Below, piece after piece: positions 27,470 through 56,088 of a DNA stretch of 64,000 bases. Position 1 is the first letter of the stretch. Each line of letters begins with the position of its first letter. The notes beneath the pieces were generated by a model. It searched no databases. It had not been told where the DNA came from and saw only the letters and a list, made by a program, of their open reading frames with translations. The translations under genes and the position numbers were made by a program. The stretch is taken from positions 1,798,001 through 1,862,000 of the forward strand of contig NC_013743.1 in the NCBI RefSeq assembly GCF_000025325.1, written 5' to 3'. Origin of the DNA: Haloterrigena turkmenica DSM 5511. GTDB lineage: Archaea > Halobacteriota > Halobacteria > Halobacteriales > Natrialbaceae.

Positions 27470-27608
27470 GGTGGCGCGCGCCGTGCTGCGCCGAACGGAG
27501 AGTGAGGCGCAGGTCGAAGCTGCGCGAGGGATGAGCGAGCCTGCGAGTGAGTGAATCGGCTGGGGAGGGAGTGGCAATTCCTTGTTGCCAGCAGCAGTAG
27601 TCTACTCG
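27470..27608 (+). repeat. Dispersed noncoding repeat, copy A
   Basis: It begins GGTGGCGCGCGCC and carries the core GCGAGGGATGAGCG (27524-27537), then GAATCGGCTGGGGAGG, and ends near GTTGCCAGCAGCAG. Three further copies in this window share the same blocks in the same order. No transposase or open frame. Copy A faces copy B tail to tail. Confidence 0.75.
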
Positions 27609-27687
27609 TTTTATCACGGTTGCCTCGAGTAGAGCGATCGGTTCTAGCAGTATTGAACGGCGGACTTGAAGCGATCGAACGTGAAGA

Positions 27688-27829
27688 TGAGCGTTCTGCT
27701 ACCGTGGCAACGGGGATTTCCACCTCCTCCCCAGCCGATTCGCTCGCTCCCGCAGTCGCTCGCTCATCCCTCGCGCACTGTCGACGGCAGCCCTCACTGT
27801 CGTTCGGTCCGCCGACAGCGCGCGCCACC
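27688..27829 (-). repeat. Dispersed noncoding repeat, copy B (inverted)
   Basis: Read on the minus strand it begins GGTGGCGCGCGCTGTCGGC, has the core GCGAGGGATGAGCG (27761-27774 complement), then GAATCGGCTGGGGAGG, and ends GTTGCCACGGTAGCAGAACGCTC. It forms an inverted pair with copy A, about 80 bp apart. The 706-bp gap 27302-28007 otherwise contains no gene. Confidence 0.75.
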
Positions 27830-28007
27830 GCACCTCGGTGTCGCGTCTCGAGTCGATTGTGGCGTCTCGAGTGAGACGGCGGTTCCGCTCGTCTGTACGC
27901 GGAGGACACTCGCCGGAACCAGTTACAGTCGCAGTCGAAGCGGACGCGACTCGTCCGTGCGGACCGAGGTGTTTTTGATCGATCCACCCTAACGCCGAGA
28001 CAGACAC

Positions 28008-47134: not shown

Positions 47135-48076
47135 CTACGTCGCCACCCCCGCGGCGAACAGGATCGCGTAGATCGCCAGCAGTTTGCCGGTTCCCTCGAG
47201 GGCCGGGTTCAGCGCCTCGCCGTCGGTCCGCGTACAGACCGTTCGGGCGACGACGGCCGCGTAGGGCAGCGAGGCGAGCGGGAGCAACACGCGCGGGCCG
47301 AACCCTTCGGCCAGCCAGAGCCACGGCGGTACGAGGTAGGCGAGTCCGAGCAGCGCGACGTACTCGACGCGGCTCCAGCGGTAACCGATCCGAACCGCCA
47401 GCGTCCGCTTGCCGGTCTCGGCGTCGGTCTCGCGGTCGCGGATGTTGTTCACGACGATGATCGCCGTCGAGATGCCGGCGACCGGGAGACTCGCGAGGAA
47501 CGCCTCGCGGGTAACGGTTCCCTCGGGGATCGTCGTCGTCAGCGGTTCGGCGACCGTCGCCGCGGCCTGGACGTAGAACGTCCCCATCACGGCGACGAGT
47601 CCGAAGAAAATGAAGACGAACAGATCCCCGAGGCCGTGGTAGCCCAGCGGATAGGGGCCGCCGGTGTAGGCCCAGCCGCAGACGACGCTCGCCAGTCCGA
47701 CGACGAGGATCGGCAGGCCGCCGACGTAGACGAGGTAGGTTCCCGACAGGATCGCCAGCGCGAAGGTGACGAACGTCGCCAGCTTCACTTGTTCCGGGGA
47801 GATAATCCCCGCCTGGGTGACCCGCGTGAATCCTTCTCGGTCGTCGGTGTCGGCTCCCTTGATCGCGTCGTAATAGTCGTTCGCGAAGTTGGTCCCGATC
47901 TGAATCAGCGCCGCGCCGACGAACGCCAGCAGCGCCGGTAGCGGGGCGAACACGCCCTCGTGGATCGCGACCCCCGTCCCGACGATCACCGGCGCCGCGG
48001 CCGCGGGCAGCGTCTGTGGGCGTGCGGCCATCAGCCACGCCTTCGTCCGTGAGATGTCGACCTCGGCCGTACTCAT
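47135..48076 (-). CDS. menA: 1,4-Dihydroxy-2-naphthoate polyprenyltransferase
   Basis: 313 residues, membrane UbiA family. The two aspartate motifs NFANDYYDAIKGAD and NNIRDRETDAETGKRTLAV bind the prenyl diphosphate with magnesium; about eight helices are predicted. It attaches the polyprenyl tail to the naphthoate ring. The ATG at 48076 begins MSTAEVDISRTKAWLMAARPQTLPA, standard for the family. First gene of the menA-C-E operon. Confidence 0.93.
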   Translation of the reverse strand: MSTAEVDISRTKAWLMAARPQTLPAAAAPVIVGTGVAIHEGVFAPLPALLAFVGAALIQIGTNFANDYYDAIKGADTDDREGFTRVTQAGIISPEQVKLATFVTFALAILSGTYLVYVGGLPILVVGLASVVCGWAYTGGPYPLGYHGLGDLFVFIFFGLVAVMGTFYVQAAATVAEPLTTTIPEGTVTREAFLASLPVAGISTAIIVVNNIRDRETDAETGKRTLAVRIGYRWSRVEYVALLGLAYLVPPWLWLAEGFGPRVLLPLASLPYAAVVARTVCTRTDGEALNPALEGTGKLLAIYAILFAAGVAT

Positions 48077-48175: not shown

Positions 48176-48898
48176 TCACCGCGATCGTCGGGCCCGCAGC
48201 CAGAGCGCCGCACCGAGACCGGCCAGTCCCGAAAGCGGCGTCAGTCCGGGGACGGGATCCTCGAGACCGCCGTCGCTCTCGTCGCCCGCGGCGCCGTCGA
48301 CGACCAGCGTCGCGTTGCGTTCGATCGGGTCGACCGAGTAGCCGCTCGGGAACATCGCCGAGTCGTTCGTGATCGCGAGGGTCTCGTTGGTCGTCGACGC
48401 GTCGTCGCTGACCTCGAGGGTGATCGTCGACGTCGTCCCGGTTCCCTTCGTGCCGTTTCCTGGCGGAGTCCGCTCCTGCTCGACGGTTATCACGCCGCTT
48501 TCGTCGTCGATCTCGACGTCGCCGTCGACCGTCGCGTTCTCACTCCCGTTCTCGCTTTCGTCCTCGTCTCCGCCGGCCAGCATCGATCCCTGTTCGACGT
48601 CGGTCACGGTGAGTACGTCGGGATCGTACTCGATCGCGTAGGAGAGCCCGCTGATTCCGTTGCCCGCGGGGTTCCCGTGCGTGCTCGCCACGAGATCGAG
48701 CGTCACGGTCTCGCCGGCCGCGACGTCGAGTTCCGTCGTGTCGTCGTTGAACCCCTCGGAGTCGAAGTACAGCAGCGTCGCGCTGTCGATGGCGCCGGCC
48801 GGCGCGGAGACGACCGCGAGCGGGGCGAAGAGGAGCCCGCAGGCGACGGCGGCCGCCAACGCGGCCGAGATGACGGCCGCGAGGCGTTCACTCGGCAT
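48176..48898 (-). CDS. Secreted cohesin-domain protein with C-terminal membrane anchor
   Basis: About 240 residues: signal peptide, then a cohesin-like beta domain (TVTLDLVASTHGNPAGNGISGLSYAIEYDPDVLTVTDVEQG), an acidic, Asn-rich stretch with N-glycosylation sequons (NGS, NAT), and a C-terminal VPGLTPLSGLAGLGAALWLRARR anchor of the PGF-CTERM type. It should be displayed on the cell surface. It overlaps the upstream lipoprotein gene by 11 nt; a GTG two codons upstream at 48904 is an alternative start. The partner is unknown. Confidence 0.75.
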   Translation of the reverse strand: MPSERLAAVISAALAAAVACGLLFAPLAVVSAPAGAIDSATLLYFDSEGFNDDTTELDVAAGETVTLDLVASTHGNPAGNGISGLSYAIEYDPDVLTVTDVEQGSMLAGGDEDESENGSENATVDGDVEIDDESGVITVEQERTPPGNGTKGTGTTSTITLEVSDDASTTNETLAITNDSAMFPSGYSVDPIERNATLVVDGAAGDESDGGLEDPVPGLTPLSGLAGLGAALWLRARRSR

Positions 48899-50144
48899 CG
48901 TCACTGCCCTCCGGCACCCGCAGTTCGATCGGCGGCATTTCGAGGAAGGCCGTGTCGTACCCCTGGTGGCGGGCGACCTGCGGCGGCGACCGAATCGTCA
49001 GCGTCACCGTATCGCCGGCCCGGAGATCGACGTCCTCGAGCGACGCTCCGTAGTGGAGCCCGTACTCTCCGTCGATGGTCTGCTCGAGGGAAACCGGTTC
49101 GGCGGTGACCGACTCCCCGTCGCGTTCGATCGTCGCGTCGAGGCTCATGTTCGGAAGCGGGACGCGGTTGTACGGCGTCCGCGGCGAGACGAGCAGGGAG
49201 CGCCCGTCACCGCCGGTCAGTCGGTGGTCCGACTCGAGGACGGTCGCGAGAAACGCCGCGTCGCCGCTTCGGGGCAGTTCGGCCGTCGATTCGGGACGTC
49301 CCTCGCGAATCTCGCCGCTCTCGTCGGTTCCGACGAGGAGCGTCCCGGGGAACGCGTCGACCTCGGGGAGCCGTGAGTAGGGAACGTGATCGTGAGCCAT
49401 CGGCTCGAGGGCACTGCGTTCGCCCCACCGCTGCTCGTCGAAGTAGTCGACGTCCGAGACCGTCTCGCGAAAGTCCTGATCGTAGTCGAACTCGAAGGTG
49501 GCCGTCTCGCTCTCGTCGAATCGGCCCGCGAGGTCGCCGGTCGTCCGCGCCGACAGCGGTGGCAGTTCGACCTCGACCGTATAGGTGCCGTCCTCCTCGA
49601 GGGGGACGTTGTCGCCGAAGTGAAAGCCCATCTCCTGGGAGAGCATCGGCCACATCGACTGCGGGGACCCGACCCGTTCGCCGTCTCGAGAGAGCCTGAC
49701 GACGTTGCCGCTGTCGACCGGCAGGATGACGCCTGTCTCCGCGTCCCAGAGAGCGAACATCATGTGGACGCCCCGCATCTGATCGGGCGGAACGTGCTGG
49801 ACGTCGTCCTCGCCGTCGCCGGTCACGAGCCAGAACGGGTGGGGGTACGATAGCATCGGCGCGAGCCGGTAGTCGCCGGCCGCAACCGGCTCGAGAGCGC
49901 GCATCGACTCGCGGTGGGTCGGCACGTAGACCGCGTCCGGTTTGTCCTCTATTTCGGGAAGGCGAGGCCCGACGTTGGCGGTCTCGTCCGATTCCTCGCC
50001 GGTTTCGTTCCCCTCACCGTCGGATTCGTTTTGCTTCTCGCCGTTTCCGTCGTCGCCGCCGAGTCCCAGACAGCCAGCCAGCGCGAGCCCGCCGGTCGCC
50101 GCCCCCCAGCCGACGAACGTCCGTCGATCGATTTCGTGGCCCAT
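48888..50144 (-). CDS. Tat lipoprotein, DUF7350-like, possibly P19-type iron-binding
   Basis: 418 residues. RRTFVGWGAATGGLALAGC is a Tat signal with lipobox, followed by an acidic, Asn-rich linker. The segment GFHFGDNVPLEEDGTYTVEVELPP resembles the metal-binding region of periplasmic P19/Tp34 iron proteins, with HMMFALWD upstream. I recall related haloarchaeal proteins as DUF7350. With the DyP-like protein upstream it may form an extracellular iron-handling set. The metal role is inferred only. Confidence 0.65.
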   Translation of the reverse strand: MGHEIDRRTFVGWGAATGGLALAGCLGLGGDDGNGEKQNESDGEGNETGEESDETANVGPRLPEIEDKPDAVYVPTHRESMRALEPVAAGDYRLAPMLSYPHPFWLVTGDGEDDVQHVPPDQMRGVHMMFALWDAETGVILPVDSGNVVRLSRDGERVGSPQSMWPMLSQEMGFHFGDNVPLEEDGTYTVEVELPPLSARTTGDLAGRFDESETATFEFDYDQDFRETVSDVDYFDEQRWGERSALEPMAHDHVPYSRLPEVDAFPGTLLVGTDESGEIREGRPESTAELPRSGDAAFLATVLESDHRLTGGDGRSLLVSPRTPYNRVPLPNMSLDATIERDGESVTAEPVSLEQTIDGEYGLHYGASLEDVDLRAGDTVTLTIRSPPQVARHQGYDTAFLEMPPIELRVPEGSDDAE

Positions 50145-50196
50145 GTGGATGGTCGTAGGTCGTCGTCTCCGATTTCGTCCTCGCGTCCTCGAGTCG

Positions 50197-51474
50197 TCAC
50201 TCCGTCTCCGTCGGGTCCGCCGGCGGCAGCGCCCGCAGCAAACGCGGCGGGACCAGATAGTTTCCGCGCCGATTCACGAAGATGTAGCCAGTGATGCCGT
50301 TGTTCAGGTTGGTCACGGAGAGGTCGTCACCCTCCATCGCCCGGCGAACGCGGACGAAGTCCTCGATCCCCTCCTGAAGGGCGAGGAAGTGGATCCCCGG
50401 CCGGTCGTCGTCGACCGTGCTGAAGTCGCGGCGCAACAGCGGCGGTTCTCCGTCCACCCGCCCGCGAGCGGCCTTCTGGGCGTGGCCGACGACGCCGCGA
50501 TCGCTGGCGTCGGATTCGGTCGCCGCGATGCGCTCGTCGGTCAGGCCGTTGGTCGTCGTCAGTTTCTCACCGGTCGCGCCGACCGCGTCCTCGTCGGCGT
50601 GTTCCGGGCTGAACATCTTCTGAACGCGCTGGTGCTGGCTGTCCTGTTCGAACCACTGGCGGAGGTTGAGTCCCATCGAGGAGACGTGCTGAGTCGTCGC
50701 CCCCTCGAACGGTCCTTCCGTGATCGTCACGCGATCCTCGGTGGCCTGGCTCTCGGTGAAGCCCGACCGAAAGCCCATCAGCGACGGCGCCTCGTCGGGG
50801 ATCGAGTCCGGGACGCCGTCGAGATCGGTGTGGTTAGCCGGCAGCCCTTCCCCGATGAACCCGGTCCGGCGCCGCTCGTCGACGCGCTCGAAGACGCCGG
50901 TCAGGTCCGTCTCGATCCCGCGGCCGTTGTACGCGTCGCGCTCGCCGAACAGCCCCTGCTCGGCCTCGAGGGCGACCTCCGGGTGGTCGCTGGCGAGGTG
51001 GAGGACGGCGTCGAACTCGTCGAACCTGTCGGCGTCGCCGACGACCGGCTCCGGGTCGGGGAGATCGACCGAGTCGGGCAGTGAGCCGTCGAATCGATCG
51101 AAGTACGCCGGCGTGTAGCCCATCGTGAAGACCAGCCCCTCGTTGCTCCACTCGTAGGCGCGCTCGAGGGCCCGAAGCGCGTCCTCGACCTGCGTTCGAG
51201 CGTCGTCGGTCGGCTCCGCCTCGAGCGACAGCGCTACCAGCACGTGGTGTTCCGGCAACTGGACGTTCCCGTCGTCATCCGTCGAGAGGAACTCGTTCCA
51301 GGCGTGCTGTCGCGACGGCAGCGAGTCGGGATCGTCGGTCCCGGACGGGACGTCGACCTCGTCGTCCCCGCCGTTCTCGGAGAGACAGGCGCTGAGCGCC
51401 GACGCGCCGCCGACGGCCACCAGCGCTCGGAGGTAGTCCCGGCGGGACAGCGCGGACCGATCGGGAAGTGTCAC
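50197..51474 (-). CDS. Tat lipoprotein of the dye-decolourising peroxidase superfamily (DUF7405-like)
   Basis: 425 residues. Signal SRRDYLRALVAVGGASALSAC with the lipid cysteine C30. The DyP fold is indicated by GVVGHAQKAARGR, whose H331 matches the heme-ligand position, and by LLRRDFS followed by GIHFLALQEGIEDFVRVRRAMEG. The usual GxxDG motif reads GFRSG at 234-238, so the catalytic aspartate is replaced by S237. It may bind heme without normal peroxidase activity. It probably works with the P19-like lipoprotein, as EfeB works with EfeO in bacteria. Confidence 0.7.
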   Translation of the reverse strand: MTLPDRSALSRRDYLRALVAVGGASALSACLSENGGDDEVDVPSGTDDPDSLPSRQHAWNEFLSTDDDGNVQLPEHHVLVALSLEAEPTDDARTQVEDALRALERAYEWSNEGLVFTMGYTPAYFDRFDGSLPDSVDLPDPEPVVGDADRFDEFDAVLHLASDHPEVALEAEQGLFGERDAYNGRGIETDLTGVFERVDERRRTGFIGEGLPANHTDLDGVPDSIPDEAPSLMGFRSGFTESQATEDRVTITEGPFEGATTQHVSSMGLNLRQWFEQDSQHQRVQKMFSPEHADEDAVGATGEKLTTTNGLTDERIAATESDASDRGVVGHAQKAARGRVDGEPPLLRRDFSTVDDDRPGIHFLALQEGIEDFVRVRRAMEGDDLSVTNLNNGITGYIFVNRRGNYLVPPRLLRALPPADPTETE

Positions 51475-51597
51475 TGGTCGGAAGTCGGGTGCCGATGTTC
51501 AAATGGTTTTCTCCCTTGATCGCAGGGTCGAAGAGATGGGACTCGAGGAGTGTTGTCGACCCACACGAAAGTGCTCTTGACTGGCGATCCGACGTTC

Positions 51598-51865
51598 GGT
51601 GGCGCGCGCTGTCGGCGAGACGCGACCGAAGGGAGCGCCTCGAAACGCGAATCGCGCGGGACCGACGGTCCCGCGAACCATACGAACGGGCGCGGAGCGC
51701 CCGTGAGTAGACGGGGAACGAAGTGATCCGTGAGCGAGGTCGGCCGAACGCCAGTGAGGGCGGACGACGATTCGTGCGAGGGATGAGCGGTGAGTAGCGC
51801 GAACGAGCGAATCGGCTGGGGAGGGTGTGGCGCTCCCTGTTGCCAGTAATAGCAGAATGTTCGAG
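51598..51865 (+). repeat. Dispersed noncoding repeat, copy C
   Basis: The longest copy (about 268 bp). It begins GGTGGCGCGCGCTGTCGGC, has extra inner sequence with small hairpins, the core GCGAGGGATGAGCG (51776-51789), GAATCGGCTGGGGAGG, and the tail GTTGCCAGTAATAGCAGAATG. It lies in the 455-bp gap 51475-51929, which otherwise has no gene. Confidence 0.75.
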
Positions 51866-51929
51866 TCACCTCCCGTACGGCCGAAACCCGATCTGAGACG
51901 TTCCTCGACCGAATAACGCGTTCAGACGT

Positions 51930-52823
51930 TCAGTAGTGCCACGGGAAGTCGTCGAAATCGGGATCGCGGCCCTCGACGAAGGCGTCCCGGCCCTCCTTCG
52001 CCTCGTCGGTCATGTAGCCCAGTCGCGTCGCCTCGCCGGCGAAGACCTGCTGGCCGATCATGCCGTCGTCGGTCATGTTGAAGGCGTACTTGAGCATCCG
52101 CATCGCCGTCGGGCTCTTGGCATTGATGCGCTCGCCCCACTCGAGGGCCGTCTCCTCGAGTTCCTCGTGGGGGACCGCTTCGTTGACCATTCCCATCTCA
52201 GCGGCTTCTTCGGCGTCGTACGTTTTCCCGAGGAAGAAGACTTCGCGGGCCTTCTTCTGGCCGATCTGTTTCGCGAGGTAGGCCGAGCCGAAGCCGGCGT
52301 CATAGCTGGCCACGTCGGGATCGGTCTGGAGGAACTTCGCGTGCTCCTCGCTCGCGAGCGTCAGGTCGCAGACGACGTGCAGCGAGTGGCCGCCGCCGAC
52401 GGCCCACCCGGGAACGACGGCCACGACGACCTTCGGGATGTGGCGGATGAGACGCTGGACCTCGAGAATGTGCAGACGACCCTGCTCCGACGCCCGTTCT
52501 TCGTCGCCCTCGTACTGGTAGCCGTCCTCGCCGCGGATGGTCTGGTCGCCGCCCGAACAGAAGGCCCAGCCGCCGTCCTTCGAGGAGGGGCCATTGCCGG
52601 TCAGCAGGATGCAGCCGACGTCGGTCTGGCGCTTGGCGTGGTCCAAGGCGTCGTACAGCTCGTCGACCGTCCCCGGCCGGAAAGCGTTGCGCACGTCGGG
52701 CCGGTCGAAGGCGATCCGGACCGTGCCGGAATCGACCGCTCGATGGTAGGTGATGTCCCTGAACTCGTCGTTCAGCTCCGCGACCGGCTCCCAGCGCTCG
52801 GGGTCGAACAGTTCCGAAACCAT
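51930..52823 (-). CDS. menB: 1,4-Dihydroxy-2-naphthoyl-CoA synthase
   Basis: 297 residues from MVSELFDPERWEPVAELNDEFRDITYHRA. Crotonase fold with MenB-specific segments: CILLTGNGPSSKDGGWAFCSGGDQ, PGWAVGGGHSLHVVCDLTLAS and FLQTDPDVASYDAGFGSAYLA. It closes the second ring of the naphthoquinone. Longer in-frame starts (to 52967) lack the family N-terminus. It is separated from menA-C-E by about 3.9 kb and lies inside a block bracketed by the repeat copies C and D. Confidence 0.93.
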   Translation of the reverse strand: MVSELFDPERWEPVAELNDEFRDITYHRAVDSGTVRIAFDRPDVRNAFRPGTVDELYDALDHAKRQTDVGCILLTGNGPSSKDGGWAFCSGGDQTIRGEDGYQYEGDEERASEQGRLHILEVQRLIRHIPKVVVAVVPGWAVGGGHSLHVVCDLTLASEEHAKFLQTDPDVASYDAGFGSAYLAKQIGQKKAREVFFLGKTYDAEEAAEMGMVNEAVPHEELEETALEWGERINAKSPTAMRMLKYAFNMTDDGMIGQQVFAGEATRLGYMTDEAKEGRDAFVEGRDPDFDDFPWHY

Positions 52824-52968
52824 TGGCTCGACGTTGGTCCGCGGGCTGTGAAATAGGTTCGCGTCGCGCTCGAGGGGCTTGCGGATGCGGTTACGGTTTC
52901 GGTGTGACGCCCAAGCAACCGGTCCGCTGTGTTCGAGCCGTCGTTTCGTTCGGGCGACCCGAATCAAG

Positions 52969-55797: not shown

Positions 55798-55879
55798 TCG
55801 CTTGGGTGCTCGTTTTCAATCGGTATCCGACGCAATACGCTCGGATCCATTTTCGTGGGGACTACGTAGAAACTGGACA

Positions 55880-56088
55880 CTCGAGCGTTTTGCTCACGCT
55901 GGCAACGGGGAATCGCCACACCCTCCCCAACGATTCGCTCGCTCCAGAGAGTCACTCGCTCATCCCTCGCACGGCTTCGTGCCGTGGTTCGTCTCAGGCT
56001 CGCGGGTCACTCCGCTCCCCGCTCGCTTCTCGAGGCGCTCGGTTCCCTCGCGCCTCGCATCCCTCACCGCGGCACGGCGCGCGCCACC
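55880..56088 (-). repeat. Dispersed noncoding repeat, copy D (inverted)
   Basis: Read on the minus strand it starts GGTGGCGCGCGCCGTGCCGC and contains the core GCGAGGGATGAGCG (55957-55970 complement) and GAATCGTTGGGGAGGG, ending GTTGCCAGCGTGAGCAAAACGC. It fills most of the 328-bp gap 55798-56125 and is in the opposite orientation to copy C. Confidence 0.75.

Follow-up and report, generated by a model that had tools for sequence, protein, structure and literature searches.

The window analysed here is a 64,000-nucleotide stretch of the Haloterrigena turkmenica DSM 5511 genome (contig NC_013743.1, positions 1,798,001 to 1,862,000), and the subject is a set of three minus-strand open reading frames at 48176-51474. 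The three frames were confirmed: 50197-51474 (425 residues) encodes a protein resembling EfeB and other dye-decolorizing peroxidases (DyPs), 48888-50144 (418 residues) encodes a P19-like lipoprotein, and 48176-48904 (242 residues) encodes a cohesin-domain protein. Given that the first two are separated by 52 bp and the second and third overlap by 17 bp, all on the same strand, the genes look like a single transcription unit, judging by their spacing. A sequence-only reading of this locus had noticed a changed active site in the DyP-like protein and suggested a surface heme- or iron-handling role without normal peroxidase chemistry. What it observed is correct and applies more widely than it claimed; its interpretation is half right, and the evidence leans toward peroxidase chemistry that was retained with a moved acid-base group.

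The DyP-like protein belongs to DUF7405 (PF24152), a Pfam family of unknown function whose model spans residues 74-410 and covers nearly all of the mature protein (E = 1.1e-146; 488.6 bits against a curated cut-off of 27.1). Kinship with DyPs is weak from the single sequence and clear from the family profile and the fold. Searched against the PDB on its own, the sequence brought up no DyP among the matches listed. When a profile of 55 homologues was used instead, DyP chains appeared as weak matches (E of 0.17 and above), one of them aligned without gaps through GHAQK...LRRDF and beyond, with Ser at the place of residue 350. The Pfam model Dyp_perox_C, in turn, matches 31 of 55 DUF7405 members at E of 1 or below (best 5.4e-6). 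The AlphaFold model of the protein (predicted local distance difference test, pLDDT, 87.4; predicted template modelling score, pTM, 0.87) has two ferredoxin-like domains of the DyP/EfeB type. Its structural matches are headed by EfeB (Z = 27.5, root-mean-square deviation 3.2, 318 residues aligned, 16% identity), a place that EfeB shares with other DyPs because these lie within 1 Z; Foldseek also matched the model to a DyP (E = 2.5e-15). A DyP fold is not by itself proof of function, and the protein is filed as a DUF7405 member, in a DyP-fold branch without the GxxDG motif, that is neither a canonical DyP nor a member of EfeUOB. The prediction that this protein and its P19-like neighbour are exported lipoproteins was borne out at the level of motifs: a twin-arginine pair and a cysteine of lipobox type (RR11-12 and C30) are conserved in 86/86 DyP-like rows, and RR7-8 and C25 in 50/50 P19 rows, both sets including the window protein and the own-genome copy, L055.

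Active-site residues were compared across 185 distinct DUF7405 sequences, which remained after identical rows were merged among 195 (the window protein included). These came from loci L001-L196, minus L055 and L086, with open reading frames of at least 150 residues and E up to 1e-10. The genomes were a non-random choice, with roughly one for each genus and, in addition, divergent and multi-copy genomes; locus lists were capped at 30, which favours high scores, and pieces and frame-broken copies (for example in G114, G217 and G374) were left out. Conservation in this set is beyond chance, with the same residues recurring across the 185 homologues: G330, H331, K334, R348, R349, F363 and G393 are all invariant. 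H331 (codon 50482-50484, within VVGHAQK) is the proximal heme histidine by homology, aligning by motif with H329 of EfeB, and the downstream pair R348-R349 has its equivalents in MLRRG of EfeB and IVRQS of YfeX. The sequence-only reading correctly saw the heme-histidine region and these arginines as kept. It was also correct that the hallmark GxxDG reads GFRSG (within MGFRSGF), with S237 (codon 50764-50766) in the place of the distal aspartate of DyPs. The aspartate is indeed lost, but the change is not peculiar to the window protein, as 182 of the 185 sequences share the loss (Ser in 132, Ala in 46, Thr in 3, Asp in 3 and Gly in 1). With the aspartate missing in so many homologues, and no internal stops, explanations by gene decay or by a mutation private to this protein were rejected.

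A candidate for an alternative distal acid lies two residues past the invariant R348. Position 350 (codon 50425-50427, in the R348-R349-D350-F351 motif at 50422-50433) is Asp in 124 sequences, His in 43, Ser in 11, Thr in 6 and Glu in 1. All 17 rows with Ser or Thr at 350 have Glu at 351, and the single Glu350 row (L123) is gapped at this place, its residues being RRSE, which brings the rows that read RR[S/T]E to 18. Asp or His directly after the arginine pair, or Glu one position later, is found in 185/185. As a control, 23 bacterial DyPs were compared, of which 21 are encoded on plasmids and the other two are EfeB and YfeX of E. coli. In none of them is either of the two residues that follow the arginine motif Asp, His or Glu (the first is G, S, A, N, P or L, the second Y, F, M, L or I), and 21 of the 23 keep the GxxDG aspartate, with L211 having Glu and L221 neither. 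Seven class-P-type control rows read RxN, and YfeX reads RQS. PDB titles name R243/N245 variants of DtpB and R244/N246 variants of DypB, the same spacing as R348-x-D350. In DtpB, the Asn is described as protruding into the distal pocket, where it occupies the site of a water bonded to the distal aspartate in A-type enzymes (PMC8463360). Given this spacing and the pocket position of the DtpB Asn, D350, which by motif register takes the position of the class-P Asn, makes a good candidate for a distal acid. The catalytic group may thus have been moved rather than lost, and with such a candidate at hand the proposed absence of normal peroxidase chemistry does not follow.

Whether the distal aspartate or the distal arginine is responsible for peroxide cleavage in DyPs is debated (PMC8463360, PMC8197335, PMC6153280), and the family could also be explained by an arginine that cleaves peroxide alone, with residue 350 shaping the pocket as Asn does and the loss of D237 simply tolerated. 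The invariance of R348 and R349 fits this explanation, as do reports that DypB cannot do without the arginine and that this residue has a key role in DtpB (PMC8197335; also PMC8463360). The D143A variant of KpDyP retains Compound I formation, with a rate similar to R232A, for which a drop of three orders of magnitude is stated (PMC6153280); loss of the aspartate would therefore not exclude activity even without D350. However, a space-filling residue would have no need to be Asp, His or Glu in every one of the 185 sequences, rather than Asn, Ser or Gly, and we consider an arginine acting alone unlikely, if the strongest of the alternatives.

The neighbouring gene (48888-50144) suggests a link to metal. 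The P19-like segment that had been noticed in its product is supported by a Pfam match to Iron_transport (P19; E = 7.9e-6, 26.6 bits against 21), followed by a C-terminal DUF7350 domain (E = 2.5e-53). The predicted structure (pLDDT 85.3) matches chains of FetP, FtrA, P19 and Tp34 over about residues 77-233 (Z = 11.5-12.6), the best match covering residues 78-227 (Z = 12.6, 134 aligned, 2.5 A). No P19 match came up when a profile of only the N-terminal half of this domain was searched against the PDB, and DUF7350 (residues 293-413) matched cytokine-receptor-like and other sandwich domains at Z of 7.8 or less. Seven residues are invariant in the 50 P19 rows: H102, H127, M129, M167, M172, H175 and M249. 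In the alignment with FtrA, M167 corresponds to the Met of PM and H175 to the His of DGPH, both invariant in 41, so that the Met and His ligands of the PM...GPH stretch are kept. The Asp of DGPH is replaced by M172, also invariant in 41. The likely iron site of Campylobacter jejuni P19 is given as an acidic patch of Glu3, Glu44, Asp46 and Asp92 (PMC9174327), and on our reading M172 is the counterpart of Asp92. With Met and His kept and Met replacing the FtrA aspartate, copper is as possible as iron, and the P19 partner may have a Met/His site of copper type. Two further Iron_transport (P19) genes occur in the same genome (C1:1542385-1542537 and C5:120882-121043), distant from its single DUF7405 gene.

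A P19 gene lies directly downstream in all 15 of the closest loci and is in view at 97/184 DUF7405 loci overall, a count in which 26 of the 184 rows have one flank under 2 kb and no P19 in view, and one counted P19 is more than 2.5 kb away. By clade, named after the residues at 237 and 350-351, the counts are 73/120 for S-D, 24/43 for A-H, 0/17 for S/T-E, 0/1 for L123 and 0/3 for D237. The link to metal from this linkage is moderate. A different neighbour accompanies the diverged RR[S/T]E clade: an FG-GAP/UnbV_ASPIC protein is encoded within 1.5 kb in 18/18 (L123 counted), against 2/120 S-D, 0/43 A-H and 0/3 D237 loci. Partner choice therefore tracks clade. Several loci of the RR[S/T]E clade (which includes L117, L121, L123, L125 and L127) also lie near genes for a family-5 solute-binding protein and a BPD_transp_1 permease. 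Ferritin_2 genes occur near the DUF7405 gene in two lineages. On the Haloarcula marismortui plasmid pHMA155, DUF7405 and P19 genes are adjacent (L227:7614-9969), with a heavy-metal P-type ATPase about 4 kb away and a cation diffusion facilitator about 7.5 kb away.

Such neighbours also bear on which metal would be involved. The pair could oxidise copper, or deliver it to exported proteins, much as DtpA is linked to the maturation of GlxA in Streptomyces. The P19 domain keeps M167 and H175, has M172 for the Asp of DGPH, and has H127, M129 and M249 invariant as well; FtrA/P19 structures bind copper according to PDB titles; one bacterial DyP adjoins a PCu(A)C copper chaperone; DtpA has been linked to GlxA (PMC4736821); and the Haloarcula plasmid pair is close to a metal P-type ATPase. 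On the other hand, the two other plasmid regions read showed no metal P-type ATPases, iron transporter is the annotation given to many P19 genes on plasmids, and two lineages have the Ferritin_2 genes near DUF7405. Copper rather than iron seems improbable to us. Non-enzymatic handling, the idea of the sequence-only reading, in which a pseudo-peroxidase would bind, store or pass on heme, or remove its iron, with P19 as helper, would suit the missing hallmark aspartate, the P19 neighbour and the claim that EfeB extracts iron from heme (PMC9174327), but it too is improbable, as very diverged paralogues retain the arginine pair together with the acid or His after it, which argues for preserved catalysis, and no heme-uptake genes were seen among the Pfam-identified neighbours, a part of all neighbours.

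The explanation that best joins these observations, which we put forward tentatively and at a little under even chances, is an exported and probably lipid-anchored heme peroxidase of DyP/EfeB fold whose acid has moved to D350 and which works with a P19 metal lipoprotein. The two lipoproteins would sit on the exterior side of the cell membrane and probably work together. H331 would bind the heme iron and R348 would be the distal arginine. The acid-base group would have moved from the GxxDG motif (S237) to the stretch after the arginine, where it would be D350 in the window protein and, in two sister clades, H350 and E351 respectively. Peroxide would be the substrate of the DUF7405 protein, which would hand oxidising equivalents on to a metal, either Fe(II) or Cu(I), held or delivered by the P19 partner. 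For the family as a whole, it is possible, though we hold it with still more reserve, that DUF7405 is a DyP branch in which the distal acid was relocated past the arginine, with a later change from Asp to His or a shift to Glu, and whose clades became coupled either to P19-DUF7350 or to FG-GAP/ASPIC proteins. The A237-H350 members would then have a His/Arg pair, as in peroxidases of the horseradish peroxidase type (PMC8463360).

Several points weigh against this explanation. First, the curated DyP sequence models (TIGR01413 and Dyp_perox_C) miss most DUF7405 members, and TIGR01413 gives the window protein 12.7 bits against a cut-off of 100.5. Second, the register between DUF7405 and DyPs at the arginine pair is set by motif: the family profile aligned to E. 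coli EfeB with HMMER has a gap directly after RR in a weak match (2.4 bits), and the EfeB loop after RR is longer than that of DUF7405. The control set also holds near-copies (L212/L218 and L213/L214). Third, P19 was not seen near the S/T-E clade or at many S-D loci. Fourth, no FTR1/EfeU permease was found over the cut-off in 41 genomes, the own genome included, with one match below it in G398. A surface metal or heme role, as the sequence-only reading supposed, is plausible, but iron is less sure, both for this reason and for the Met at the FtrA aspartate.

The tree adds further points on the same side. When it was built without the trait columns, the A-H (support 100), S/T-E (97) and D237 (100) rows each fell on one side of a branch, and four state changes suffice for the five labels. 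Each alternative state needs no more than a single origin, one change apiece for A-H, S/T-E and D237, so the coupling of positions 237 and 350 is no proof by covariation and was rejected as independent evidence; the pattern fits relocation of the acid without proving it. A Fisher value takes no account of kinship and is given no weight here. Three members (L151-L153, whose reading frames are long, at 681, 733 and 801 residues) have both D237 and D350, reading GFND, with the aspartate kept, and RRD. These rows lie near the base in a quick tree and join the S/T-E clade in a careful one (support 93/86; p-value of the approximately unbiased test, p-AU, 0.07). Given these different placements, an ancestral state with both acids was rejected as a firm story.

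The family is widespread in the class of the window organism. PF24152 has matches in 346 of 391 sampled genomes of Halobacteria and in 26 of 196 in a phylum sample, all 26 from the window's own family or order. It is not confined to haloarchaea, given a member on a Streptomyces plasmid (L230:3989-5065, 358 residues, E = 5.6e-88, annotated hypothetical) with no visible signal sequence; it reads GFHSG, GHAQA and RRDF, keeping S237 and D350 but not K334. Dyp_perox_C is over its cut-off in 6/41 relatives and 2/196 phylum genomes, with no match in the own genome. Both phylum matches and four of the six in relatives fall at DUF7405 places, as does that of a fifth relative (G137, L087). No separate ordinary DyP gene was therefore identified in these 41 relatives and 196 phylum genomes, the sixth match (G045) being unchecked. 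Literature searches found no paper in the library covered that names DUF7405, DUF7350, PF24152 or PF24041, and none on a haloarchaeal DyP, judged by title and start of abstract.

The locus has further features. The third product (48176-48904) is a cohesin-domain protein, as the sequence-only reading had it (Pfam Cohesin, E = 1.7e-8, 35.2 bits against a cut-off of 24.1), with a weak PGF-CTERM-like tail that scores 12 bits, below the NCBIfam cut-off of 24.5. The cohesin gene was rejected as a core part, being present in 12/15 closest loci and in 0/39 others (tblastn hits over 60 residues). Two dockerin-domain genes in the own genome (contig C1, 655445-658543) encode possible partners of the cohesin protein. 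Downstream on the minus strand is menA (1,4-dihydroxy-2-naphthoate polyprenyltransferase, 47135-48076), the first of the downstream men genes and probably outside the system, and upstream, also on the minus strand, is an ECH_1-family gene (51930-52967) that is probably menB by synteny. The ECH gene is upstream, and menA downstream, in 11/15 closest loci each, and DyP-P19-cohesin loci with no men genes in view occur in Halovivax, Natronoglomus and Halostagnicola (L006, L007, L011). Because hits to ECH and menA were confined to the 15 closest of 54 loci, a functional tie to menaquinone genes was rejected, and the men genes are taken as neighbours rather than partners. The 455-bp gap upstream of the DyP-like gene (51475-51929) contains a dispersed repeat of about 100 bp, with other copies in the window at 27490-27838 and 55879-56058. 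It has at least 48 matches in the own genome, and those listed are all on contig C1 (40 of 100 candidates scored).

The proposed relocation would matter beyond this locus. A family found in most sampled Halobacteria, which has dropped the aspartate and has Asp, His or Glu elsewhere, amounts to a natural test of the question of aspartate versus arginine. If the proposal is true, the change from Asp to His would recreate the His/Arg pair of plant-type peroxidases inside a DyP fold. The proposal would also assign a function to a widespread haloarchaeal family of unknown function, and provide a candidate surface metal-oxidation system in genomes without FTR1 over the cut-off.

What the locus has in common with EfeUOB, P19-cFtr1 and FtrABCD is an extracytoplasmic protein of DyP or P19 fold in a metal setting; it differs in having no permease over the cut-off in the 41 genomes. 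To our knowledge, the pairing of an EfeB-like protein with P19 is the composition of none of the three (PMC9174327). Compared with P19, FtrA, FetP and Tp34 (Pfam Iron_transport), the partner protein has the common fold and the aligned metal-site Met and His, but has Met at the FtrA aspartate, extra invariant His and Met residues and a C-terminal DUF7350, and its neighbour is a DyP-fold protein in place of FTR1. The class P/B-type DyPs (DtpB, DypB, YfeX) share the fold of the DUF7405 protein and a polar residue two on from the arginine (R-x-N versus R-R-D), whereas they keep the GxxDG aspartate and have Asn or Ser where DUF7405 has Asp or His; they are not known to have an export signal. EfeB (class I/A-type; Z = 26.1 for the E. 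coli and 27.5 for the Sphingomonas protein) differs in having the GxxDG aspartate where DUF7405 has Ser or Ala, Gly after RR where DUF7405 has Asp or His, and EfeO as a neighbour in place of P19. DUF7405 also has a shorter loop after RR and a lipobox, and no FTR1/EfeU over the cut-off accompanies it. With EfeB it shares the fold, the Tat motif, the GFKxG loop, the proximal His, the LRR distal arginine motif and an extracytoplasmic, metal-related setting.

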